Source: Chloroflexota bacterium
Lineage (GTDB): Bacteria > Chloroflexota > Anaerolineae > UBA4142
Assembly: GCA_016208315.1 (NCBI GenBank)
Contig: JACQYF010000139.1
Location: 1 to 64,000, forward strand
DNA length: 64,000 nt
Reading direction: 5' to 3'
Shown: in pieces, positions 1,299 through 16,009 of the stretch
Layout: each line of letters opens with the position of its first letter
Numbering within the stretch: the first letter of the stretch is position 1
The notes under the pieces: model-generated
Seen by the model: only the letters and a program-made list of their open reading frames with translations
Database searches by the model: none
Told to the model about the DNA's origin: nothing
Made by a program: the position numbers and the translations under genes

Positions 1299-3326
1299 AT
1301 GCCGCGTGACCTGCCGCTGGGCAACGGAAACCTGCTTGTTGCTTTTGACAACCATTATCAGATTCGTGATTTCTATTGGCCCCACGTGGGACAAGACAAT
1401 CACGCGATGGGACATCCCTTTCGCACTGGCGTCTGGGTGGAGGGTCAGTTCCGCTGGTTCGACGATGCGGGATGGCAACGCGACCTGGGCTATGAGCACG
1501 AAACGCTCGTGTCGAAAGTAAACCTCGCGCACGCTGATTTGAAATTGTCCATCGTCGCCGCAGACGCAGTGGACTTTCACGAGAACGTGCTCGTCCGCCG
1601 CTTCGATGTGACCAATCACACCCATCGCGCGCGCGAGGTGCGACTCTTTTTTCATCACGACTTGCACATCGCGGGCAACGAAGTCGGCGACACCGCGTAC
1701 TATGAACCTGACCGTCGCGCGGTGATTCATTACAAAGGTGCGAATTGGTTTCTCGCGAATGGCGCGCTGGTTCAATCCGAAGGTGACCCAGCCCCAGGAT
1801 GGGTCGCATCACCTGACACGGCGAAAGGTTTGGTGGTCGGCGCGCACCAATGGGCGTGCGGACTCAAAGAAGTTCACAACCTGCAAGGCACGTGGCGCGA
1901 CGCCGAAGATGGTCAACTCTCTGGAAGCGCGGTCGCGCACGGATCGGTGGACTCGTGCATCGGATTCACGCTGACGATTCCCGCAGGACAAACGCGCATC
2001 GTGTACTCTTGGCTCGTGGTTGGTTCGGACTTTGAAAATGTCGTGGCGCTGAATCGGATGGCGCGACAACGGGGTCCGCAATCTTTTCTCGATCGGACGG
2101 CGGCGTACTGGCGCTTGTGGTTGAATCGGCATCGTCCCGATTTTCAAGACCTGCCTCACAAAATTCAAGATCAATACCTCACCAGTCTACTCGTGATTCG
2201 CACGCAAATTGATAACGATGGTGCGATCATTGCCGCGAACGATACCGATATTTCTTCGGCGGTGCGTGACACCTATAGTTACATGTGGCCCCGCGACGGT
2301 GCGTTGGTGGCGCAAGCATTGACTCTCGCCGGTTACATTGATTTGCCGCGCGCGTTTTTCCAATTTTGCGCCAACGTGATCACGCGCGAAGGTTACCTCC
2401 TGCACAAGTACAATCCCGACGGCACGCTCGCCTCGAGTTGGCATCCCTGGTATCGCGAGGGTCACAAAGACCTGCCAATTCAGGAAGACGAAACCGCGCT
2501 CGTTTTGTGGGCGCTCTGGAATCACTTTGAACGCTTCGGCGATGTCGAGTTTATCAAGCCGCTCTACAAAACGTTGATTGCTACATCCGCCGAGTTCCTG
2601 ATTGCATACCGCGATCCAGAAACGAAATTGCCATTGCCCAGTTACGATTTGTGGGAAGAGCGGCGCGGCGTCTTGGCTTGGACGGTTGCGGCAACTTGGG
2701 CGGGGTTGAATGCAGCGGCAAATTTCGCGGAAAGTTTCGGCGACACGACGCGCGCGTTCCACTGCCGCGCGGCTGCCGATGAAATCAAAGCCGGCGTCGA
2801 AAAATTTCTGTGGCGACCCGAACGCAATTGTTTCGCGCGCATGATCAACCGCGCGCCCGATGGCAACTGGGAAGTGGACGACGCACTCGATGCTTCACTC
2901 ACCGGGTTGTGGCTCTTTGGGATGTATGCACCTAATGACCTGAAAATCGTCGCGACGATGAATGCCATCCGCGAGCGATTGTGGGTCAAGACGGACATCG
3001 GCGGAGTCGCGCGTTACCAGGATGATCGCTATCACCAAGTCAGTCAAGACCTCGCGAACGTGCCGGGGAACCCCTGGTTTATCTCGACTTTGTGGCTGGC
3101 GCGTTGGTACGCGGTCACTGCTCGCTCAACATCAGACCTGAAACGTTCGCTATCCCTTATCGAGTGGGTCACGGAACACGCGCTTGCCAGCGGCGTACTG
3201 GCGGAACAGGTGCATCCCTTCTCGGGTGCGCCATTATCGGTCAGCCCGCTGACCTGGAGTCACGCGGCATTCGTGTCTACGGTGCAAACTTATTTGCAGA
3301 CGCAGAAAGAATTGAAAGGAGCATAA
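1299..3326 (+). CDS. Glycoside hydrolase family 15 protein (glucoamylase-like)
   Basis: 675 aa; MPRDLPLGNGNLLVAFDNHYQIRDFYWPHVGQDNH..., YSYMWPRDGALVAQAL, typical GH15 family. Confidence 0.9.
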   Translation: MPRDLPLGNGNLLVAFDNHYQIRDFYWPHVGQDNHAMGHPFRTGVWVEGQFRWFDDAGWQRDLGYEHETLVSKVNLAHADLKLSIVAADAVDFHENVLVRRFDVTNHTHRAREVRLFFHHDLHIAGNEVGDTAYYEPDRRAVIHYKGANWFLANGALVQSEGDPAPGWVASPDTAKGLVVGAHQWACGLKEVHNLQGTWRDAEDGQLSGSAVAHGSVDSCIGFTLTIPAGQTRIVYSWLVVGSDFENVVALNRMARQRGPQSFLDRTAAYWRLWLNRHRPDFQDLPHKIQDQYLTSLLVIRTQIDNDGAIIAANDTDISSAVRDTYSYMWPRDGALVAQALTLAGYIDLPRAFFQFCANVITREGYLLHKYNPDGTLASSWHPWYREGHKDLPIQEDETALVLWALWNHFERFGDVEFIKPLYKTLIATSAEFLIAYRDPETKLPLPSYDLWEERRGVLAWTVAATWAGLNAAANFAESFGDTTRAFHCRAAADEIKAGVEKFLWRPERNCFARMINRAPDGNWEVDDALDASLTGLWLFGMYAPNDLKIVATMNAIRERLWVKTDIGGVARYQDDRYHQVSQDLANVPGNPWFISTLWLARWYAVTARSTSDLKRSLSLIEWVTEHALASGVLAEQVHPFSGAPLSVSPLTWSHAAFVSTVQTYLQTQKELKGA

Positions 3327-3329
3327 CCT

Positions 3330-3626
3330 ATGCTGAAAAGAGATGTTTCCAAGAACGGCAAAACGTGCAAGGTGACTTTTGAATTGCCCGCTCAAGTGAA
3401 CGCGCAGACCGCGTGTTTGTGCGGCGAATTCAACGACTGGGACGAAAAATCTCATCCGATGAAACGGGGCAAGGATGGCAGTTTCAGTTTGACGATCTCG
3501 CTGACAACGGGCCAGTCCTATCGCTTTCGCTATCTCCTTGACGGCGAACGCTGGGAGAACGACTGGGAGGCGGACGCCTACGTGCCTAACGAGTTCGGCA
3601 GCGAGGATTCGGTGGCGCAACTGTGA
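3330..3626 (+). CDS. Isoamylase early-set / CBM48-like glycogen-binding domain protein
   Basis: 98 aa; VTFELPAQVNAQTACLCGEFNDWDEKSHPMKRGKDGSFSLTISLTTGQSYRFRYLLDGERWENDWEADAYVPNEFG, the classic E-set glycogen-binding pattern. Confidence 0.85.
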   Translation: MLKRDVSKNGKTCKVTFELPAQVNAQTACLCGEFNDWDEKSHPMKRGKDGSFSLTISLTTGQSYRFRYLLDGERWENDWEADAYVPNEFGSEDSVAQL

Positions 3627-4177
3627 CAAAATCGCCGATAGGCAACCTTGCACCTGACGCAAGACTGGCTACGATTGACGGACAAACACTCTCGCTCGCC
3701 GAGACAATGGGCAAGGGACAAAATACGCTACTCGTTTTCTTGCGGCACCTGGGTTGACTGCCTTGCCGTGAGCATGTGGCACAGTTGTGCCAACACACGG
3801 CTGCGTTTCAAGCAGCGAATACGCGCATCGTCCTGGTGTCGTTTGGAGCGGCGTACCAAGCGCGTGCGTGGCAGGCCGAAATGGGCGCGTGCTTTACGCT
3901 CTTGCTTGACCCAGATCGTGCGGCGTATCGCGCGTACGATTTGGAGCGCTCGCTGGCGCGGGCGTGGCAACCGAAAGTGTGGTTGGAGTACGCGCGCTTG
4001 ATGATGAGCGGCAAAAAATGGCGCGGCATTCAAGGTGACAGCACGCAACTCGGGGGCGATTTTATCGCAGATGCAGATGGCATCCTTCGATTCGCGCATC
4101 GCAGTCACGATCCGACGGATCGTCCGTCGGTGGCGCAACTGTTAAAAGAAATTAAGACACTGAATCCCACGATATGA
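3623..4177 (+). CDS. Peroxiredoxin-like (AhpC/TSA, PRXL2-like) protein with in-frame TGA (putative Sec) at 3755-3757
   Basis: GTG at 3623 overlaps the previous stop (GTGA). Frame: MTKSPIGNLAPDARLATIDGQTLSLAETMGKGQNTLLVFLRHLG-U-LPCREHVAQLCQHTAAFQ...LKEIKTLNPTI. The ORF track reports only the part from 3776. TGA falls at the first redox position of the (C/U)xxC motif. Confidence 0.8.
3777..3792 (+). promoter_or_regulatory. Putative bacterial SECIS hairpin for the TGA at 3755-3757
   Basis: TGGCAC (3777-3782) pairs with GTGCCA (3787-3792), loop AGTT (G at position 2). Loop starts 25 nt after the TGA. Confidence 0.6.
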
Positions 4178-5184
4178 ACCTCGCAAACCAACTGTTTCTA
4201 GCGGGCGACATTGGCGGAACCAAAACCGCGTTAGCAATTTTCTCCACCGAGCAAGGCGTACGCCAGCCCATTGCAGCAACAACATTTCCGAGCAACCGTT
4301 ATGCGTCGCTCGAAGAGATGGTCAAAGAATTTCTCGCGGACAAGCATCTTCGGGTGACTCGCGCGAGTCTGGGTGTGGCAGGACCTGTTCAAAAAGAGCG
4401 CGCCCAAATTACCAATCTTCCCTGGGTTGTTGACGCACGCATTCTCAGTCAGACCCTCGGCGGCGTTCCCGTTCGTTTGCTAAATGATCTCGTGGCGATT
4501 GCGCACGCGATTCCTTTTCTGGAATCTTCTGACTTGGAAACGCTGGAAGAGGGTGCGGCAGGAAAACACAGCCCTATGGCGGTCATTGCCCCAGGTACTG
4601 GGCTGGGCGAAGCCTACTTGATCTGGGATGGCAACCGCTATCTTCCGTTGCCATCAGAAGGCGGACACGTCGATTTTGCGCCGACGAATCCAACCGAACT
4701 AGAATTGCTGACCTATCTTCAAGCACGCTTGGAACACGTCAGTTACGAACGAGTTTGTTCGGGCAAAGGGATCCCAAACTTGTACGCTTTTTTGAAAGAC
4801 ACCGGGCGTTTCGCTGAACCTGAATGGCTACGCGCCGAGATCGCTTCAGCCCAGGATGTAACGCGCATCATCCTCCAGTCCGCCGTCGAGGGCAAGGCAG
4901 ATATTTGTGTCGAGACCCTAAAATTTTTCGTCTCGATTCTGGGGAGCGAGGCCGGGAATCTTGCGTTGAAAATCCTGGCGACAGGAGGGGTCTATCTCGC
5001 TGGCGGCATCCCGCCGCGCATTCTGCCGCAACTCAAAGAAACGAATTTCATCGATTCATTCACGCGCAAAGGACGCTTCGAGAATTGGCTTGCCCAAGTG
5101 CCCGTCTACGTCATTGTCAACCCTGGGATTGCGCTTGTGGGTGCAGCGTGTCACGGCTTGGAAGGAGCACATGACCATGACTGA
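4174..5184 (+). CDS. glk: Glucokinase
   Basis: 336 aa; GDIGGTKTALAIF, LNDLVAIAHAIPFL, PGTGLGEA, SEGGHVDFAP; ATGA overlap with upstream gene. Confidence 0.93.
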   Translation: MNLANQLFLAGDIGGTKTALAIFSTEQGVRQPIAATTFPSNRYASLEEMVKEFLADKHLRVTRASLGVAGPVQKERAQITNLPWVVDARILSQTLGGVPVRLLNDLVAIAHAIPFLESSDLETLEEGAAGKHSPMAVIAPGTGLGEAYLIWDGNRYLPLPSEGGHVDFAPTNPTELELLTYLQARLEHVSYERVCSGKGIPNLYAFLKDTGRFAEPEWLRAEIASAQDVTRIILQSAVEGKADICVETLKFFVSILGSEAGNLALKILATGGVYLAGGIPPRILPQLKETNFIDSFTRKGRFENWLAQVPVYVIVNPGIALVGAACHGLEGAHDHD

Positions 5185-5920
5185 ACCGCAACTCCTGATC
5201 TTCGAGAATTTGGAACGCTTGACCTGCGCTGCGGTAGAGCGATTTGCGGGGCTGGCACAGGAGGCAATTGCGGCACGCGGGCGATTCAAGGTTGCGCTCT
5301 CGGGTGGCAATACCCCGCAGGGGATGTATCGTCGACTGGCGCAATCCCCCTATCGCAATGAATTGCCTTGGTCGCAAACGCATTTCTTTTGGGGCGATGA
5401 ACGCGATGTGCCGCCCGATCATCCCGAGAGCAATTATCATCAAGCGTTTGTGACTCTGCTGAATCACACGGCGGTTCCAGCGGAAAATATTCATCGGGTG
5501 AAGGGCGAGTTGGAACCCCGTGTCGCCGCCAAAGACTATGCGGACCAACTGCGCCAGTTTGCTGAAGACGGGTACACCTGGCCCCGCTTTGACTTGGTTG
5601 TGTTAGGACTCGGCAACGACGGACATACGGCTTCGCTCTTCTCCGGTCCAATATCGCCGGAGGCTTCTCAATCCACGGTCCTCGCAGTAACTGCCGACTA
5701 CCAGGGCCGCCCCGCGGACCGCGTGACCCTCACACCGCTAGTTCTCAATTCGGCGCGGCAAATCATTTTCCTGGTCAGCGGCGCGAGCAAAGCAGAGGCG
5801 ATCCAAGCCGTGCTACGCGGGAAACGCGATACAGCCCGCTGGCCAGCTCAGCGCATTCATCCATGGGATGGGACCATCACTTGGATGATCGATGTGCCAG
5901 CCGCAAGCCAACTGAAGTAA
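5171..5920 (+). CDS. pgl: 6-phosphogluconolactonase
   Basis: MTMTEPQLLIFENLERL...FKVALSGGNTPQGMYRRL...FFWGDERDVPPDHPESNY...LGLGNDGHTASLF. The ORF track start (5090) is too far upstream. Confidence 0.93.
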   Translation: MTMTEPQLLIFENLERLTCAAVERFAGLAQEAIAARGRFKVALSGGNTPQGMYRRLAQSPYRNELPWSQTHFFWGDERDVPPDHPESNYHQAFVTLLNHTAVPAENIHRVKGELEPRVAAKDYADQLRQFAEDGYTWPRFDLVVLGLGNDGHTASLFSGPISPEASQSTVLAVTADYQGRPADRVTLTPLVLNSARQIIFLVSGASKAEAIQAVLRGKRDTARWPAQRIHPWDGTITWMIDVPAASQLK

Positions 5921-6005: not shown

Positions 6006-6830
6006 TCAGTTCGCGTGGCATGCGGACGGTCTGACTCCAACGAGGATCGCATAGCCCAATTTGCCCGTGTGAATTGTTTCCGCCGCAACGCGCGCGAGCA
6101 ATTTGGCTTGCTCGAAATCGACGGTCGGTAGATCGAGTTTTTTGAGTTTCACGAGCAGTTCTGCACCCAGGAGTTTGGCTCGAATCGTGCTGACCATTTC
6201 GACCAGCGCATCGTCGTGCCGTTCGGTTTCGATTCGAGTGAACCCTGTGCCTTCAAGGTACGCCACGTACTCTTCAATCCGTTGCGCGTCGGCGATACAA
6301 GCGATCCACGCCAAGAGTGTCTCCAGTTCTGGCGGGAGTGGTCCCGTGCGCGTGAGATCGCTCAAACCAATCTGTCCCCCAGGACGAAGCACACGCGCGA
6401 ACTCAGCGGCAGTTGTTACCTTATTTGGAAACGCGCAAAAGGCGCATTCGCAAATCACCGCATCGAATTCGCCGTCATCGAAAGCCAGCACTTCCGCATC
6501 CCCCTGTCTGAATTCGACGCGCTCAGCCATTCCCGCCTGTTGCGCGGCAGCGTTGGCTTGAGCAACCAACTTGGCGCTATAGTCTACGCCGACGACCTGG
6601 CATCCAAATTTCTGCGCGAGAAAGATGGCGCTGGTGCCTTTGCCCGCCGCGACATCGAGCACGCGGCTGTGCGTATCCAATTTGAGCAATGCGCCTAGTC
6701 GCTCGGTGAGCGCCAACCCACCAGGATGAAACGAATCACCCAGGAGCAATTTGGTCCAGTCGCTTTCATAAAGTGCGGCACAGCAAGTCTTGATGGTCGT
6801 CGCTTGAACGAATTGAATGGGCTGGGTCAT
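6006..6830 (-). CDS. Class I SAM-dependent methyltransferase
   Basis: Internal start MTQPIQFVQATTIKTCCAALYESDWTKLLLGDSFHPGGLALTERLG...VLDVAAGKGTSAIFLAQ; starts 1 nt after the radical SAM stop. Confidence 0.85.
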   Translation of the reverse strand: MTQPIQFVQATTIKTCCAALYESDWTKLLLGDSFHPGGLALTERLGALLKLDTHSRVLDVAAGKGTSAIFLAQKFGCQVVGVDYSAKLVAQANAAAQQAGMAERVEFRQGDAEVLAFDDGEFDAVICECAFCAFPNKVTTAAEFARVLRPGGQIGLSDLTRTGPLPPELETLLAWIACIADAQRIEEYVAYLEGTGFTRIETERHDDALVEMVSTIRAKLLGAELLVKLKKLDLPTVDFEQAKLLARVAAETIHTGKLGYAILVGVRPSACHAN

Positions 6831-6831
6831 T

Positions 6832-8355
6832 TCAATGTCCCTGACCATTTCCGTGGTTAAATGAAAAGATGAGGGGCGCGGGTTCATAGGCGACACCCTC
6901 TCGCTCAGCGCGAACGCGCGCGTGTTGCCGCGCCGCGAGTTGCTCACGCGCTTGTTCGCGATAGCCGACGTTGTTATAGGCGCAGAACGGAATCTGTTTG
7001 CCATCGGGCAACAAGATTTCTTTGCAACACTTCATCACGTTTTTCTGATTGAACGTCCAGGGATCGAGAAAATCCTGAAGCATGATCATAAAGATGTGGT
7101 CGGTCAGCGCGCTCAAATCGAAACCGCCATCGGGCAAGCCGCACGCGGCGCAGGTCAGCGCAAATACTTGCGCGGCTTTGGGCGAACCTGGGACTGCCGA
7201 CGATGACCACAATCCTTCCAAAGCCGTCTTGATGTCCCCCGCAAGATCGGGTGCGACGCGATTGGTGATATAGTCCAGATAGTCGTCCACGTTGATCAAA
7301 CGCGTGATCGGCGTAACCGCATCGCCGTCCACGTACGCATACGTGACTGAATTGCACGTGGGAAAGCAACACGGCACGGGCACAAAATCGGATTTGAAGA
7401 ATTTGCCCTCGGTCTGCGCTTCGATCAAGTTGAGGACATCGGGAATCGTGATGCGTTGAAGCGGATCATGTTCGCCGTGCCGACCCGAATGAAACGCGGG
7501 TTGGAAATTGATGCCGCGCACGGCAGGGTGCGCCAAACCAAATTGAACGATGCGACCGATCTCGTGTTCGTTCACGCCGCGTTCAATCGCCGGCACCAGG
7601 ACAACCGAACAACCGATGGAAGCCAGGCGATCCAGCGCGCGGATTTTTTCGGGCAAGAGATTGGGTTCGCCGCGAATCGCGCGATACGTCTCCGCCTCAA
7701 ATCCGTCAAATTGAAAATAGATCATCGGGCGAACCTCGGCAAGTTGAGCGAGAAAGGCGTCGTCGTGGGCGATCCGCCGACCATTCGTGTTGAGCATCAC
7801 GGCGCGAATATTTCGAGCCTGGGCGGCTTGGATCATGGGAATGATGTCGGGGTGGATGGTCGGTTCGCCACCCGAAAACTGCACCACTTCGGGATGCCCT
7901 TCCGTAGCAACGAACGCATCGAGCATCGTTTCGACCTCGCGTAAGGTGAGACTGTAGCCCGCACCCGCGTTGGCAAAACACAAGGGACAGTCCATATTGC
8001 ACGCGCTGTTGACTTCGATGATGCCGAGGCAGGCGTGCTGTTGATGATCGGGACAAAGCCCGCAATCGTGCGGACAACCGCGCTCGATTCTTGTGGTAAA
8101 CTGGAGTGGAATCGTCCCAGGTTTATTGAATCTGGAATTGGCGGTGTATGCCTGAGCATCGGCATAAATGAGCGATTCAAAATGACCGTGCTCTGGACAA
8201 CGCTTACGCATAAACACTTTGTTATCGCGCAGCAGGATGTGAGCATCGATCACGCACCGACACTGCGGACAGATACTGCGCGTGAGTTCGTAGAAAACAT
8301 AATCGGCATCTTTTTTCTTGGACGTGACGGAAGTCGCTGTTGCCAGGTCAATCAT
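6832..8355 (-). CDS. Radical SAM protein (MJ0619/Tes-like family architecture)
   Basis: 507 aa; N-terminal CPQC plus KRCPEHGHF zinc-ribbon-like segment, GCPHDCGLCPDHQQH, then CNMDCPLCFANAG (CxxxCxxC) and SGGEPTIHPD. Confidence 0.85.
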   Translation of the reverse strand: MIDLATATSVTSKKKDADYVFYELTRSICPQCRCVIDAHILLRDNKVFMRKRCPEHGHFESLIYADAQAYTANSRFNKPGTIPLQFTTRIERGCPHDCGLCPDHQQHACLGIIEVNSACNMDCPLCFANAGAGYSLTLREVETMLDAFVATEGHPEVVQFSGGEPTIHPDIIPMIQAAQARNIRAVMLNTNGRRIAHDDAFLAQLAEVRPMIYFQFDGFEAETYRAIRGEPNLLPEKIRALDRLASIGCSVVLVPAIERGVNEHEIGRIVQFGLAHPAVRGINFQPAFHSGRHGEHDPLQRITIPDVLNLIEAQTEGKFFKSDFVPVPCCFPTCNSVTYAYVDGDAVTPITRLINVDDYLDYITNRVAPDLAGDIKTALEGLWSSSAVPGSPKAAQVFALTCAACGLPDGGFDLSALTDHIFMIMLQDFLDPWTFNQKNVMKCCKEILLPDGKQIPFCAYNNVGYREQAREQLAARQHARVRAEREGVAYEPAPLIFSFNHGNGQGH

Positions 8356-8634: not shown

Positions 8635-11397
8635 ATGACGAAATCGATTCAACAAGCCCAGCAATTGGGACAATCCATTTGGTACGACAACATCCGGCGC
8701 GCCCTGCTCACCTCGGGCGAGTTGAAACGGCTGGTGGAGGATGGCGTGGTCGGCGTCACGTCCAACCCGAGTATTTTTGAAAAGGCGATTGTTGGCAGTA
8801 CCGACTATGATTCGGCGTTGCGGACGCTCGCGCAGGAAGGCAATGAACTGGATGCGATCTATGAGACGCTCGTGTTGGATGACATTGCCACGACTGCCGA
8901 TTTGTTGCGCCCAGTTTATGGTCGCACGGATGGGCGCGATGGCTACGTCAGCGTTGAGGTTCGTCCGACCCTAGCGCACGATACGGACGGCACGATCTCC
9001 GAAGCGCGGCGATTGTTCCACGCCTTGGCGCGTCCGAACGTAATGATCAAAGTGCCAGCGACGCCCGAAGGAATTCCTGCAATTGAAGCGCTGATCGCCG
9101 AAGGCATCAACGTCAACGTCACCCTCATCTTTTCAATTGAATCGTATGGGGCAGTCGCCGACGCGTACCTGAGGGGACTGGAAAAACGCGCGGCAAACGG
9201 CGGTGATCTGCGTCACGTGGCATCGGTCGCTTCCTTCTTCGTCAGCCGGGTAGATACGGCCGTGGATCGGCAACTTGACGCGCTCATTCGCGGCGGAAAA
9301 AAGGATTTGCAATCTTTACTCGGTCAAGCCGCGATGGCGAACAGCAAACTAGCGTATGCGCGCTTCAAGGAGATCTTTAACAGCCAACGTTTCGCTACGC
9401 TTCAAGCCCAGGGCGCGCGCGTGCAACGTCCCTTGTGGGCAAGCACGGGCACCAAGAATCCGCAGTACCGTGATGTCGTGTACGTCGAAGGACTGATTGG
9501 CGCAGACACGGTCAACACCGTACCGCCAGCGACGCTGACGGCGTTCAACGATCACGGTCAGGTCGCGGCAACGCTGGAAACAGGACTGGCTGAAGCGAAA
9601 CGGACCCTGGCACAACTTGCTGACGTGGGGATTGATCTTGCCACCATCACGCGCGATCTGCAAGCCGAAGGCGTTCAGGCATTTGTCGAGTCATTCGACA
9701 AACTACTCGCGAATCTTGACGACAAACGCGCGCGGTTGCTTGCCAATGCACACACCCACACGGCGAACCTGGGTACAACGCATGCCGATGTGGATGCAAC
9801 GCTTGTAGACTTGCAAAGGCGCGCTGTCGTTCGGCGAATCTGGGCAAAAGATCACACCGTTTGGAAATCCGACCCGCGCGAGATCACAAATCGGCTGGGC
9901 TGGCTGACTGTGGCAGACACTCTGCACGAGCACGCCGACGAATTGATCGCCTTTACCGATGAAATTCGCCGCGCCGGTTTCAAGGATGTCGTCTTGCTCG
10001 GTATGGGTGGAAGCAGTCTTGCGCCTGAAGTGTTTCGCGTGACCTTTGGCAAACGGCGCGGCTATCCTCGACTGCACGTACTGGATTCGACCATCCCCGC
10101 GTGGGTGCGGCGCGTGACCCAGGCGATTGATCCCGCGCACACGTTGTTCATTGTCTCCAGTAAATCAGGCGGCACGTTGGAGGTGAGATCATTCTTCAAA
10201 TATTTTTACGCGTTGGTTGCGAAGAACAAGCGCAAACGCGCGGGTGAAAATTTTATCGCGATCACCGATCCTAACACGAGTCTACAACAACTCGCCGAGT
10301 CGTATCACTTTCGCCGCGTCTTTATCAATCCGCCCGATATTGGCGGTCGCTATTCTGCGCTGTCCTACTTTGGAATTGTGCCGGCCGCGTTGGCGGGTGT
10401 CGATATTCACACACTGCTTCAACGGGGCGAGTGTATGGCTGAGAGTTGCGCCGAATGTGTGCCCGCGCACGAGAATCCTGGGGCGTGGCTGGGGGCGGTC
10501 CTCGGCGCCTTTGCGAAAGCAAGACGCGACAAAGTCACGTTCATCACCTCGCCCAGGATCGCAACGTTCGGGTTGTGGGCGGAGCAGTTGATTGCGGAAA
10601 GCACGGGCAAAGAAGGCAAGGGTATCTTGCCCATCGCACAGGAACCATTCGCTTCGGCAAAGGAATATGACGCCGATCGCGTTTTCGCTTATTTGCGATT
10701 GGATGGCGACGACAACCGCGCGAGTGATCGGCACGTCGTCGCGCTGGAAAAAGCGGGACAACCCGTGATTCGCGTGACCCTGCGCGATCGTTACGATCTG
10801 GGTGCGGAATTTTTCCGTTGGGAATTTGCGACGGCCATCGCGGGCGCGCTCATCGGCATCCATCCCTTCGATCAACCGAACGTGCAAGAAAGCAAAGATT
10901 ACACGGCGGCGGTCTTGAATGGCGCGCGCGCCAAAAGCATGATTCCACCAACGCCCAATACTGGCACACTGGCTGATCTTTTGGCGCAAGCCCATTCGGG
11001 CGACTATGTAGCACTGATGGCGTACGTGAACGGCACGCCACAAGTGGACGCGGCGTTGAATGATTTGCGCTCGGTCCTTTTGAAGCAGTATCGCTTGCCC
11101 AACACACTGGGCTATGGACCGCGCTTTTTACACTCGACGGGACAATTGCATAAGGGGGGCGCGAACAAGGGACTGTTCGTGCAACTGACAGCCGATGGGG
11201 GTGAAACCTTGCCTGTGCCTGACGAAGGATATAGTTTCGCTCAACTCGCCGCCTCTCAAGTGGTGGGCGATTACGCATCCTTGCTCAATCACGAGCGACG
11301 CGTGGTGAGGATCCACTTGGGAAGAAACAGCGTACACGAGATTCGCCAGTTGATTGCCGAATTGAAAAGCGCACGTACACGCAGAGGTCGCCGATGA
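8635..11397 (+). CDS. Bifunctional transaldolase / glucose-6-phosphate isomerase
   Basis: 920 aa; transaldolase half (VTSNPSIFEKAIVGS, FFVSRVDTAVD, WASTGTKNP) fused to PGI half (GMGGSSLAPEVFR, SSKSGGTLEV, GPRFLHSTGQLHKGG). Confidence 0.95.
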   Translation: MTKSIQQAQQLGQSIWYDNIRRALLTSGELKRLVEDGVVGVTSNPSIFEKAIVGSTDYDSALRTLAQEGNELDAIYETLVLDDIATTADLLRPVYGRTDGRDGYVSVEVRPTLAHDTDGTISEARRLFHALARPNVMIKVPATPEGIPAIEALIAEGINVNVTLIFSIESYGAVADAYLRGLEKRAANGGDLRHVASVASFFVSRVDTAVDRQLDALIRGGKKDLQSLLGQAAMANSKLAYARFKEIFNSQRFATLQAQGARVQRPLWASTGTKNPQYRDVVYVEGLIGADTVNTVPPATLTAFNDHGQVAATLETGLAEAKRTLAQLADVGIDLATITRDLQAEGVQAFVESFDKLLANLDDKRARLLANAHTHTANLGTTHADVDATLVDLQRRAVVRRIWAKDHTVWKSDPREITNRLGWLTVADTLHEHADELIAFTDEIRRAGFKDVVLLGMGGSSLAPEVFRVTFGKRRGYPRLHVLDSTIPAWVRRVTQAIDPAHTLFIVSSKSGGTLEVRSFFKYFYALVAKNKRKRAGENFIAITDPNTSLQQLAESYHFRRVFINPPDIGGRYSALSYFGIVPAALAGVDIHTLLQRGECMAESCAECVPAHENPGAWLGAVLGAFAKARRDKVTFITSPRIATFGLWAEQLIAESTGKEGKGILPIAQEPFASAKEYDADRVFAYLRLDGDDNRASDRHVVALEKAGQPVIRVTLRDRYDLGAEFFRWEFATAIAGALIGIHPFDQPNVQESKDYTAAVLNGARAKSMIPPTPNTGTLADLLAQAHSGDYVALMAYVNGTPQVDAALNDLRSVLLKQYRLPNTLGYGPRFLHSTGQLHKGGANKGLFVQLTADGGETLPVPDEGYSFAQLAASQVVGDYASLLNHERRVVRIHLGRNSVHEIRQLIAELKSARTRRGRR

Positions 11398-12197
11398 TTC
11401 GCGCCGCACTCTTTGATCTCGACGGCACGCTCGTCAAAACCGAATGGTTGAAAATGTTATCGTACGCGGACGCAGTCCAGCAACTCAGTCCAACGTCTGT
11501 TACAATCGAGCAGGTGCAACAGGTGTTTATGCAAGTGGTCGGTCGCTCGCGCGAACAAGTGGCGACGACCCTGCTCGAACATTTCAATCTTGCCGTTGTA
11601 GCGCAGGCGCGTCTTGCGGAAATGAACGCGCAATTTCCCTGGCAAGTCCTAGCGCGTCTGCGAATGCAAGTGTACGACATGATGTTGGCGGATCCGCAAG
11701 TGTTGCGCGCGAATCAGTGGGAACACAACGTCGCATTGTTGCGCGCGGCAAAGCAAAGCGGTTGCCGCACCGCGCTCGCCAGTATGTCATACTGCGAGCA
11801 AGTCACCCGTATTCTCGATGCGGTTGGACTCGCGGATCAATTCGAGGTGATTCTTTCGCGCGACGATGTCGAAAAGCCAAAGCCCGATCCCGAAATCTAC
11901 TTGCTCGCGGCACGGTTGCTCGATACCCAGCCCGACGAATGTCTGGTGATCGAAGATTCGCCCGTAGGTGTGCAAGCGGCGGTCGCGGCAGGAATGAATT
12001 GCATCGCGGTCGCCACGCCGCTCACGCGCGAGCAACTGCACGCGCAGAAACTATTGTCCTCGGAATGGATCGTCGATGATCCTGTCACCTTGCCTGCGGT
12101 GGTCGAGCGGATGATCAAAGGTCACCTCGGTGATTCAATCGCACCATGGCAAAACACATTAGGCGGAAGGAACATCCAAAATGGAAAATCAATTTGA
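11394..12197 (+). CDS. HAD-superfamily hydrolase (beta-phosphoglucomutase-like)
   Basis: ALFDLDGTLVKTEWLK...DDVEKPKPDPEIYLLAA...CLVIEDSPVGVQAAVAAGM. Confidence 0.9.
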   Translation: MIRAALFDLDGTLVKTEWLKMLSYADAVQQLSPTSVTIEQVQQVFMQVVGRSREQVATTLLEHFNLAVVAQARLAEMNAQFPWQVLARLRMQVYDMMLADPQVLRANQWEHNVALLRAAKQSGCRTALASMSYCEQVTRILDAVGLADQFEVILSRDDVEKPKPDPEIYLLAARLLDTQPDECLVIEDSPVGVQAAVAAGMNCIAVATPLTREQLHAQKLLSSEWIVDDPVTLPAVVERMIKGHLGDSIAPWQNTLGGRNIQNGKSI

Positions 12198-13590
12198 TCT
12201 AATTATCGTGGGCGGTGGCGCAGGCGCGTTTGCCGCCGCGATCAAAGCGAACGAGTATCAAGCCAAGACGTTGATGATCAACGCGGGTTTGCCGCTCGGC
12301 GGGACGTGTGTCAACGTCGGTTGCGTGCCGAGCAAGAATCTGCTCAAGGTCGGCGAGTTCAAATTTCACGCGCAGCATCACAACTTTGGCTCGATCAACA
12401 TCCCCGACGTGCAGTTCGATTTTCCGCGCGCGATTGACGAAGAACTGCAAACCGTCGCGGAACTGCGTCAGAAAAAATATAACGATGTGCTCGCGAATCT
12501 GGAGCACGTCACTTTACTCGAAGCGCGCGCGCGCTTTGTTTCGCCGCACGAAGTGGAAGCGCGTGGACAGAAATTCTACGGCGACCGATTCGTCATCGCG
12601 GTCGGCTCGACCGCACTGCCCCCGCCGATTCCTGGGATTGAAGAGGTCGGCTATCTGACGCACATCGAAGCGTTGCGGAACAAGCAACTGCCGCGCCGAC
12701 TGCTCGTGATCGGCGCGGGACCTGTCGCGCTTGAATTCGCGCAGATGTTCCGTCATTTCGGCAGTGAGGTGACGCTGGTCGTGCGTGGCAGTATGCTCTA
12801 CAAAAAAACAGAGCCAGAGATCTCTGATGCGCTCGAAGAATATCTGAAACAAGAAGGCATCACGATCTACAAACAGAGTCAGGTCAAACGCCTGCGCGTC
12901 GAGCGCGGTCAAAAGATCGCGACGCTGTTTTCCGACGGACGCGAAACCGAGATCGCGTTCGACGAATTGTTGATCGGCACGGGCAAAACACCGAACACGA
13001 GTGGACTCGGCTTAGACGCGGCAGGTGTTGCAATAAACGAACAGCACGCGATCCGGGTGAACGCCTGGTATCAGACGAACGTGCCGCATATCTACGCGGT
13101 CGGCGACGCGGTGGATTTGCCCAAGCGTCTCGAAACGACGGCAGGCAAGGAGGGCAGTTTTGCGACCACCAATCTGCTCACAGGTGTGAACAAAAAGAAG
13201 ATTGATTACGATCTCGTGCCCGCCGTTGTATTCACGTATCCAGCCGTTGCCGATGTCGGCATCTTGGATGAACAAGTGGGCGAGCGCGGCATCCAGTGCT
13301 ATTGCGGCACCGTTTATTTCGACCAGTTGCCCAAGTCGCTCATCATCAAGGACACCCGCGGGGCGATCAAGATGGTTGCCGAGGACAAGACGAATCGCAT
13401 CGTCGGCGTGCACATCGTCGCGCCGCACGCGGAGGAACTCATCAACGAGGCGATGTACATCCTGCGCGCGCGGATGACGATTGACGATGTGATTGATTCG
13501 CTGACTGTTTTTCCGACGCTCTCGGAGGCGATCAAACTCGCCGCGCTTTCGTTTCGGACCGACATTAGTCGCGTGAGTTGCTGTATTTAG
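12181..13590 (+). CDS. MerA-like FAD-dependent pyridine nucleotide-disulfide oxidoreductase
   Basis: 469 aa; GGTCVNVGCVPSKNLL, PHIYAVGDAVD, C-terminal ...DISRVSCCI vicinal cysteines as in mercuric reductases. Confidence 0.85.
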   Translation: MENQFDLIIVGGGAGAFAAAIKANEYQAKTLMINAGLPLGGTCVNVGCVPSKNLLKVGEFKFHAQHHNFGSINIPDVQFDFPRAIDEELQTVAELRQKKYNDVLANLEHVTLLEARARFVSPHEVEARGQKFYGDRFVIAVGSTALPPPIPGIEEVGYLTHIEALRNKQLPRRLLVIGAGPVALEFAQMFRHFGSEVTLVVRGSMLYKKTEPEISDALEEYLKQEGITIYKQSQVKRLRVERGQKIATLFSDGRETEIAFDELLIGTGKTPNTSGLGLDAAGVAINEQHAIRVNAWYQTNVPHIYAVGDAVDLPKRLETTAGKEGSFATTNLLTGVNKKKIDYDLVPAVVFTYPAVADVGILDEQVGERGIQCYCGTVYFDQLPKSLIIKDTRGAIKMVAEDKTNRIVGVHIVAPHAEELINEAMYILRARMTIDDVIDSLTVFPTLSEAIKLAALSFRTDISRVSCCI

Positions 13591-13621: not shown

Positions 13622-14533
13622 ATGGAACTGGGAATGATTGGACTAGGTAAGATGGGCGCGAATATGACACGCCGATTGCTCAACGGTAATCATCGCGTCG
13701 TCGTGTTCGATCCGCGTGTCGAAGCGGTGCAAGAACTGCAAGCCATCGGTGCGGAAGGCACAGCATCGCTGACGGAACTAATCGGCAACGTGAAAACGCC
13801 GCGCACCGTTTGGGTGATGGTACCGTCAGGCAAGATTACGGAGGAGACGATTCAGGCACTCTCCGATTTGTTATCGCCAGGCGACACGGTGATTGACGGT
13901 GGCAACTCAAATTACAAAGATTCGCAACGTCGCGCAAAACTGCTCGAAGCGAAAGGACTGCACTTCATTGACGTTGGCACGAGCGGTGGCATTTGGGGCG
14001 TCACCGAGGGCTATAGTCTAATGATCGGCGGCGAAAAAGAAATCGTCGCGCGGCATCGCGCAATTTTTGAGACGCTTGCGCCAGCGCGCGACCAGGGTTG
14101 GGGACATGTCGGTCCCGCAGGCGCAGGGCATTTCGTCAAGATGATTCACAACGGCATCGAGTACGGATTGATGGAAGCGTATGCCGAAGGATTCGACATT
14201 CTGCAAGCGAAAAAAGAATTCAATCTCCGTCTGCATCAAATCGCCGAAATTTGGCGATACGGCAGCGTCGTCCGCTCGTGGCTGCTCGACTTGACCGCGC
14301 GGGCGTTGGCGGAGAACGAAACCTTGAGTGGCATCAAACCCTGGGTGCCCGATTCGGGCGAGGGACGCTGGACGGTTTTCGAGTCCATCGATCTCAATGT
14401 GCCTGCCCCCGCAATTACATTTTCTTTGCAACGTCGCTTGCGCTCGCGCGATTCCGAACCCTTCGCCGAAAAATTGCTAGCGGCGCAGCGCAATCAATTC
14501 GGGGGACACGCCGTAAAACGCGAGGAGAAATAA
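13622..14533 (+). CDS. gnd: 6-phosphogluconate dehydrogenase (decarboxylating, short form)
   Basis: 303 aa; MELGMIGLGKMGANMTRRL, DGGNSNYKDS, DVGTSGGIWGVTEGYSLMIGG, HNGIEYG. Confidence 0.93.
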   Translation: MELGMIGLGKMGANMTRRLLNGNHRVVVFDPRVEAVQELQAIGAEGTASLTELIGNVKTPRTVWVMVPSGKITEETIQALSDLLSPGDTVIDGGNSNYKDSQRRAKLLEAKGLHFIDVGTSGGIWGVTEGYSLMIGGEKEIVARHRAIFETLAPARDQGWGHVGPAGAGHFVKMIHNGIEYGLMEAYAEGFDILQAKKEFNLRLHQIAEIWRYGSVVRSWLLDLTARALAENETLSGIKPWVPDSGEGRWTVFESIDLNVPAPAITFSLQRRLRSRDSEPFAEKLLAAQRNQFGGHAVKREEK

Positions 14534-16009
14534 ATGGCTGATACTACCACCATCGTCATCTTTGGCGCGTCGGGTGATTTGACGCAACGAAAACTCATTC
14601 CCGCGCTGTTCAATCTGCGTTGCAAACAACGTCTCCCAACTAATTTACAAATTGTTGGTGTCGCATCCACAGCATTGACCGACGCCGATTTTCGCGCTCG
14701 CCTGCGCGCAGGCGTGGACCAGTTTGCCGTGGCGCCGTTTACCGAAAACGAGTGGAACGATTTCTCGGCGCGGTTGTTTTATCGCGCGGGCGCGCGAAGC
14801 GTTACTGATTTCAAAACCTATGCGCGGCTGGCGCAATCGCTTGCGGAATTGGAACGCGGCGAGGTAGACCGATTGTATTACTTGGCGACGCCACCGCAAT
14901 TCTTTGCCGATATTGTCGCGGGGCTGGGTCGCGCGGGGATGACAAATGAAAGCGCGGGTTGGCGACGCGTCGTAATCGAAAAACCGTTTGGCAGTGACCT
15001 GGCTTCGGCGCGCGCACTCAATCAGAAATTGCATCAGACGCTGGACGAAAAACAAATCTATCGGATCGATCACTACTTGGGCAAGGAAACCGTTCAGAAC
15101 ATTCTGGTCTCGCGCTTTGCGAATATGGTGTACGAACCGCTGTGGAATCGCAACTATATCGACCACGTCCAAATCACGGTGGCGGAAGAAGTTGGGGTCG
15201 GGCATCGCGCAGGATATTATGATGGCGTCGGCGTTCTGCGCGATATGTTTCAAAATCACTTGCTGCAATTGCTCTCCCTCGTCGCGATGGAACCGCCCGC
15301 TTCGTTTGACGCCGACGCATCGCGCGAGCAAAAAGTGCAAGTGCTCAAAGCGATTCGACCCATTGCGATGGATCAGGTCGAGCATCACACGATGCGCGGT
15401 CAGTACCGCGGCTATCGCGAAGAAGCAGGTGTCGCACGCGATTCGCAAACCGAAACCTACGCCGCACTGCGGCTGTTCATCGACAACTGGCGTTGGCAAG
15501 ACGTGCCGTTCTATTTGCGCTCGGGCAAGCGAATGGCGGAAAAATCAAGCGAGGTGATCATTCAGTTCAAACAGCCGCCGCATTTGATGTTTCCGAATCC
15601 GCGTGAGCGTGAACTCGAACCCAATCGGCTCGCATTGTGTTTACAACCCGATGAAGGAATTCATCTGCGAACACAAGCCAAGGTTCCCGACACGGTGGCA
15701 GACTTGCGCTCGGTCGATTTGGAATTTCATTATCGCGATTCGTTTGGGGCGGACGCGATTCCTGAAGCATATGAGCGATTGTTGCTCGATGCGCTGAACG
15801 GCGATGCATCGCTCTTTACGCGCGGCGACCGCGCGGAAATTGCGTGGAGTTTACTCGATCCAATCATCGCCGCGTGGCATTCACCCGACGCGCCACTTTT
15901 GGCAACGTACGAGCCAGGAAGTTGGGGACCGCTTGATGCAGACGAATTCATCGCGCGCGACGGTAGGATGTGGTTGCGTGGATGTGGGCGGCACGTCAAA
16001 GAAAAATAG
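14534..16009 (+). CDS. zwf: Glucose-6-phosphate 1-dehydrogenase
   Basis: 491 aa; IFGASGDLTQRKLIPALF, VIEKPFGSDLASA, RIDHYLGKETVQN. Confidence 0.95.
   Translation: MADTTTIVIFGASGDLTQRKLIPALFNLRCKQRLPTNLQIVGVASTALTDADFRARLRAGVDQFAVAPFTENEWNDFSARLFYRAGARSVTDFKTYARLAQSLAELERGEVDRLYYLATPPQFFADIVAGLGRAGMTNESAGWRRVVIEKPFGSDLASARALNQKLHQTLDEKQIYRIDHYLGKETVQNILVSRFANMVYEPLWNRNYIDHVQITVAEEVGVGHRAGYYDGVGVLRDMFQNHLLQLLSLVAMEPPASFDADASREQKVQVLKAIRPIAMDQVEHHTMRGQYRGYREEAGVARDSQTETYAALRLFIDNWRWQDVPFYLRSGKRMAEKSSEVIIQFKQPPHLMFPNPRERELEPNRLALCLQPDEGIHLRTQAKVPDTVADLRSVDLEFHYRDSFGADAIPEAYERLLLDALNGDASLFTRGDRAEIAWSLLDPIIAAWHSPDAPLLATYEPGSWGPLDADEFIARDGRMWLRGCGRHVKEK

Follow-up and report, generated by a model that had tools for sequence, protein, structure and literature searches.

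The selenoprotein gene at 3623-4177 and its surroundings

The window, by which we mean the whole 64,000-nucleotide stretch of Chloroflexota DNA analysed here, carries on the + strand a predicted SelL-related/Prx-like selenoprotein gene at 3623-4177. The frame starts at GTG 3623, runs through an in-frame TGA at 3755-3757 (codon 45, the putative Sec45) and ends at a TGA stop at 4175-4177, giving a product of 184 amino acids with the active-site context LLVFLRHLG-U-LPC-REHVAQLC. A TGC at 3764-3766 encodes Cys48, the presumed resolving Cys of the motif U45-L-P-C48. At its 5' end the gene shares GTGA with the stop of the upstream CBM48 gene, and at its 3' end ATGA with the glucokinase start (ATG 4174), so that it is tightly packed in a run of GH15, CBM48, selenoprotein, glk and pgl. 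This is the frame that had been drawn, with the same coordinates and the same overlap with CBM48, in an earlier sequence-only reading of the locus. The program-made list of open reading frames contains just 3776-4177 for this gene; usual gene callers stop at the TGA or begin past it, and the selenoprotein gene is then lost in annotation.

All but two of the neighbouring genes described here are on the + strand. Upstream are a GH15 family glucoamylase-like gene (1299-3326; PF00723, 2.5e-32) and the gene for a small CBM48 protein (3330-3626; PF02922, 1e-08). Downstream are glucokinase (glk, 4174-5184; PF02685, 1.6e-104) and 6-phosphogluconolactonase (pgl, 5174-5920; PF01182, 3.3e-69), then the two genes on the - strand (6006-7004 and 6832-8355), and then a transaldolase-glucose-6-phosphate isomerase fusion (tal-pgi, 8635-11397), which matches L078:2336-5122 (TAL_FSA and PGI domains) at 51% over its length. 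A HAD-family hydrolase gene (11394-12197) is homologous to HAD genes of L062 and L078, which lie directly upstream of the selenoprotein at those loci. It is followed by a gene for a MerA-family pyridine-nucleotide disulfide reductase with a C-terminal SCCI (12181-13590; TIGR02053, 517 bits, cut-off 454), by 6-phosphogluconate dehydrogenase (gnd, 13622-14533) and by glucose-6-phosphate dehydrogenase (zwf, 14534-16009), the last two being 65% and 60% identical to gnd and zwf of L066. The gnd and zwf genes are ~10 kb from the selenoprotein gene, past the two opposite-strand genes.

A further in-frame TGA (907-909), the other UxxC of the sequence-only reading, lies in a PrdB/GrdB-like reductase gene at 214-1227 (PF07355, 1.1e-12), which scored 121.6 bits against TIGR04483 (PrdB), under the cut-off of 300. 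A strong hairpin lies downstream of this TGA (GUG loop, -22 kcal/mol), and a homologue of the gene is found near the selenoprotein in L071 (7259-7843, - strand).

Selenocysteine at codon 45

The TGA at codon 45 was found in >50 distinct homologues from independent assemblies, mostly of Chloroflexota with a few from other phyla, and distant homologues carry Cys in the same column. The sequence-only reading had expected Cys opposite the TGA; the column holds Cys or Sec, and U/C45 and C48 do not vary across the alignments (two rows of the second alignment's family have Sec48, displayed as C). The TGA was present in 18/18 named close homologue loci, which come from Chloroflexota (Anaerolineae, Dehalococcoidia), Gammaproteobacteria, a Poribacterium and one unclassified bacterium, and at the same codon of the assembly's second copy, which is 71% identical. 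All close homologues sampled were Sec forms, two of them UxxU (L065, L067). A search with a single protein selects for peptides such as EHVAQLCQ, and the conservation of such peptides in L062-L079 is partly due to that selection; the synonymous positions and the choice of Sec or Cys in these loci are free of it. The control was a set of 400 genomes drawn from the phylum and searched with alignment A2, with its distant loci. In the draw, the 14 best-scoring matches all had the TGA, and forms lacking it, which were Cys forms, appeared only from 121 bits down. The window gene differs from the second copy at 9, 6 and 22 first, second and third codon positions before the TGA, and at 25, 24 and 65 after it. 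The third-position excess in both parts indicates protein-level selection on the frame upstream as well as downstream of the TGA.

Directly downstream is a predicted bacterial SECIS hairpin (3777-3792) with a 6-bp stem, made up of TGGCAC (3777-3782), an AGTT loop (3783-3786) and GTGCCA (3787-3792). The distance from TGA to loop is exactly 25 nt, precisely as first proposed. A 2026 review gives as bSECIS rules a loop of 3-9 nt, a stem of 4-16 bp, a G in the first two loop positions, a distance of 16-37 nt from the UGA and an energy of at most -7.5 kcal/mol (PMC13188914). The hairpin agrees with all four of these published rules (AGUU, 6 bp, G second, 25 nt and -9.6 kcal/mol for a 26-mer). The + strand of the window has 1,007 TGA triplets, and TGA 3755 is the only one with a perfect 6-bp Watson-Crick stem at the 25-nt offset. 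When the region was recoded synonymously with local codon usage, 2.7% of the recodings kept six Watson-Crick pairs, rising to 16% with G-U pairs allowed; the codon usage here was that of the window genes, a pool from the homologues being biased in favour of the hairpin. A single-sequence fold of the region gave a z-score of -1.6, insignificant alone, and in the second copy the minimum-energy fold differs from the hairpin. An Rfam scan of the first 20 kb of the window returned nothing at gathering score, which places this SECIS outside those models. In a single sequence, the hairpin is therefore modest evidence; it is the comparison across homologues that decides.

In that comparison, all six stem pairs were present at the exact offset in 47/58 TGA homologues, compared to 0/20 Cys homologues, and shifting the offset by one base abolished the signal. 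Across 53 distinct TGA rows, 97.5% of cells were paired and five of the six pairs had two-sided changes (46 in all), counts that are inflated by kinship among the rows; controls slid along the same sequences gave ≤62% pairing. The covariation score exceeded those of all 500 shuffles and all slid controls. Clear compensations include GTCGCAC/GTGCGAC in L010 and GCTTTGC/GCAAAGC in L088. Within the close clade, the codons GTG GCA CAG TTG TGC are near-constant across phyla, which protein conservation alone would not demand.

The decoding machinery was sought in the same assembly, the sequence-only reading having made its proposal depend on SelB and tRNA-Sec. Both were found: a tRNA-Sec (76 bits, anticodon TCA) and two SelB, along with SelD, whose matching sequence has a TGA of its own. 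SelA was absent from the matches in this assembly (G000), and is present in 51/60 relatives, including most of the same family. Given this frequency among relatives, and an assembly that is 93% complete in 210 contigs, the simplest reading is that the absence of SelA is likely an assembly gap. The missing SelA, together with the fragmented state of the bin and its 6.8% reported contamination, would also suit a broken Cys-type peroxiredoxin-like gene in which the TGA is a genuine stop or an error of sequencing. Yet the same TGA with a covarying hairpin recurs in independent assemblies, substitutions past the TGA are protein-like, and the overlapping gene junctions are intact on both sides. On the comparative evidence we reject a sequencing error or pseudogene at TGA 3755, and we give the stop-or-error explanation a negligible probability. 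From the comparison of sequences, UGA 3755 is almost certainly decoded as Sec by tRNA-Sec and SelB via the bSECIS at 3777-3792, the predicted product being a SelL-related/Prx-like UxxC selenoprotein. The original proposal of a selenocysteine protein is thus supported by the conserved TGA, the conserved and covarying SECIS, and the tRNA-Sec and SelB; the kind of protein was already known.

The two SelB genes of the assembly, on contigs C199 (L048) and C100 (L049), are both complete and each follows a long coiled-coil-like gene. Two SelB with no SelA among the matches could mean that the bin combines two organisms or that a single cell has both SelB. A mixed bin is possible, since the SelB pair is just 50% identical and there is reported contamination; in that case the second selenoprotein gene may be the other organism's orthologue and not a paralogue.

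Several variants of the motif were also observed. In the UxxU forms (L065:3182-3193, L067:6118-6129, L090 and L091), Cys48 is replaced by a second TGA, so that two TGA lie four codons apart (U-L-H-U) with one hairpin downstream. These forms occur in two separate branches of the family, and their second TGA is just 16 nt from the loop; a single SECIS would therefore need to act on both UGAs. Also common in the same class is a second Sec subfamily, FNRGFxUPFCRRHMAQLRQ (L012, L014, L023, L026, L028, L031 and others), which has the hairpin TGGCGC-AGTT-GCGCCA at the same offset from the TGA; in L012 and L014 the subfamily member adjoins a Cys-type relative. The Gammaproteobacterial and Poribacterial homologues (L070, L073, L074, L063) branch inside the Chloroflexota clade or beside it and have nearly the same hairpin, which suggests that they may have been transferred horizontally together with the SECIS.

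Family, fold and predicted chemistry

The product of 3623-4177 matches Pfam AhpC-TSA (PF00578) over residues 6-156, spanning the TGA (5.9e-18), and AhpC-TSA_2 (PF13911) over residues 57-162 (9.2e-15). It scored 175.4 bits against NCBIfam NF040769, SelL-related redox protein (residues 10-176, cut-off 120). An initial assignment to PRXL2/AhpC-TSA was therefore right at the superfamily level, the exact name being SelL-related redox protein, and by its sequence the protein is a predicted selenoprotein of this known family. An AlphaFold2 model made with 15 homologues (pLDDT 88.7, pTM 0.88) places residue 45 just before helix 46-57, at its N-terminus; SelL-related redox proteins likewise have their U/CxxU/C motif where the active-site helix begins. 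The best structural matches to the model were Bcp/AhpE peroxiredoxins, human prostamide/PGF synthase and ResA.

Relatives of this kind have been described before. Prx-like UxxC selenoproteins are described from the Sargasso Sea (PMC1088965), GOS data include 'Prx-like 1' UxxC selenoproteins and SelL is a Prx-like protein (both PMC2398784), and the 2026 review lists a 'Prx-like thiol:disulfide oxidoreductase, PF00578, UxxC, UxxU' (PMC13188914). The Sargasso and GOS proteins share with ours the PF00578 domain, UxxC in place of TxxU and a bacterial SECIS directly downstream. The domain is also that of SelL-related NF040769, and the close clade includes UxxU members, as in SelL; SelL itself is UxxU whereas the window copy is UxxC, and the likeness to SelL rests on the family model and the literature description. 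With PRXL2/SelU there is the PF13911 match, and prostamide/PGF synthase was also found by sequence profile; for PRXL2B (human prostamide/PGF synthase, 9usa) the fold match has a TM of 0.72/0.81, but the structurally aligned residues are only 16% identical. Classical peroxiredoxins (Bcp/PrxQ, AhpE and the TxxU selenoprotein Prx) have the same fold. However, the window protein lacks their T/S at -3 and P at -7, having V38 and H42 at -7 and -3 from U45, and its resolving Cys is at +3; the PxxxT/SxxC(U) motif is absent, and membership of the classical peroxiredoxins was rejected. R41 and H42 are invariant in the homologue alignments.

We know of no established bacterial role for Prx-like/SelL-related selenoproteins. 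From motif and fold, the protein probably adopts a peroxiredoxin/thioredoxin fold, in which Sec45 sits where the active-site helix begins, and carries out Sec-Cys48 selenenylsulfide/dithiol exchange. Sec45 would attack a peroxide or disulfide, Cys48 would resolve the intermediate as a selenenylsulfide, and a flavoprotein (e.g. the MerA-family neighbour) or thioredoxin would re-reduce it with NADPH derived from zwf and gnd. Lacking the motif of classical peroxidases, the protein is no less likely to act in thiol/disulfide exchange than as a peroxidase, and a third possible role is control of pathway enzymes. We consider the explanation as a whole highly probable, Sec decoding being its surest part and NADPH-fed reduction its least sure.

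Linkage to pentose-phosphate and flavoprotein genes

The glucose-catabolism operon of the sequence-only reading proved correct, and the association recurs in other Chloroflexota. Members of the close clade lie beside zwf, gnd, pgl, glk or pgi in 9/23 loci, compared to 0-1/17 distant loci (Fisher p 0.005-0.026, kinship ignored). Pentose-phosphate or glucose-entry genes are found within ~6 kb or less in the window, L062, L066, L067, L069, L071, L075, L076 and L078, in several gene orders. The distant homologues (L115-L130, L132) had no such neighbours bar one weak dehydrogenase match, and the Gammaproteobacterial homologues had no pentose-phosphate linkage. On the tree, the linked label changes 4 times, compared to 9.5 for shuffled labels; the label here took in L064, whose short contig shows just the HAD gene. 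In the open-licence literature, a pentose-phosphate linkage of the clade was not found, and the 2026 review contains neither 'glucose' nor 'pentose' (PMC13188914). The family itself being known, the recurrent linkage is the less expected part of the finding.

MerA-family flavoprotein genes occur near the selenoprotein in the window (8 kb), L131, L065, L066, L067, L069, L077 and L078; the gene is of a different subfamily in other loci and absent from many close loci. Other neighbours recur as well. A protein of ~357 aa is encoded directly after the selenoprotein in L066 (6543-7616), L069 (6534-7601) and L077 (761-1837), with a TAT/lipoprotein-like N-terminus, the C-terminus WFWICL and no Pfam or NCBIfam match. 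Genes for an FAD-dependent (tryptophan-halogenase-like) protein and a CDP-alcohol phosphatidyltransferase-like protein recur beside the selenoprotein in L040, L071, L075, L076, L113 and L114, with or without zwf/gnd. Directly after the second copy in the assembly (L131, G000:C10), the first 22 HAD codons are fused in frame to an apparent zwf C-terminal end (9732-9911), which reads as a putative deletion relic of the same kind of pentose-phosphate cluster.

The protein may use NADPH from the surrounding pentose-phosphate enzymes, via a MerA-family flavoprotein or thioredoxin, to reduce peroxides or protein disulfides, a proposal to which we give not quite even weight; the MerA-family protein at 12181-13590 as electron donor is a guess at a candidate. 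Somewhat less probable is a general peroxidase or thiol-disulfide reductase whose placement among sugar genes is inherited operon order with no functional meaning. Such inheritance would account for the unlinked distant and Gammaproteobacterial homologues, for the clustering of linked rows on the tree, and for the L131 copy, which lost most of its pentose-phosphate cluster and kept the selenoprotein; it sits less easily with a linkage that persists through several different gene orders and a label that changes 4 times. A redox switch, in which the protein reduces or oxidizes regulatory cysteines of G6PDH or another sugar enzyme rather than detoxifying peroxide, seems improbable. It draws on the presence of zwf itself among the linked genes of the window, L066, L067, L069, L071, L075 and L076, on UxxC/UxxU motifs typical of disulfide exchange and on the missing classical peroxidase motif, but L062 and L078 have only pgi, tal and HAD within reach.

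Returning to NADPH-fed reduction, the linkage to zwf/gnd/pgl/glk and to flavoprotein disulfide reductases suggests an electron route from glucose-6-phosphate through NADPH and a flavoprotein to the selenol. No sampled member of this clade has Cys in place of Sec. A broader reading, which we hold to be rather unlikely, is that in many Chloroflexota the Sec-only SelL-related clade belongs specifically to the oxidative pentose-phosphate pathway, which it would serve as a Se-dependent terminal reductase or redox switch. If true, the clade would be tied to NADPH derived from G6PDH and 6PGD, at several loci via a MerA-family flavoprotein.
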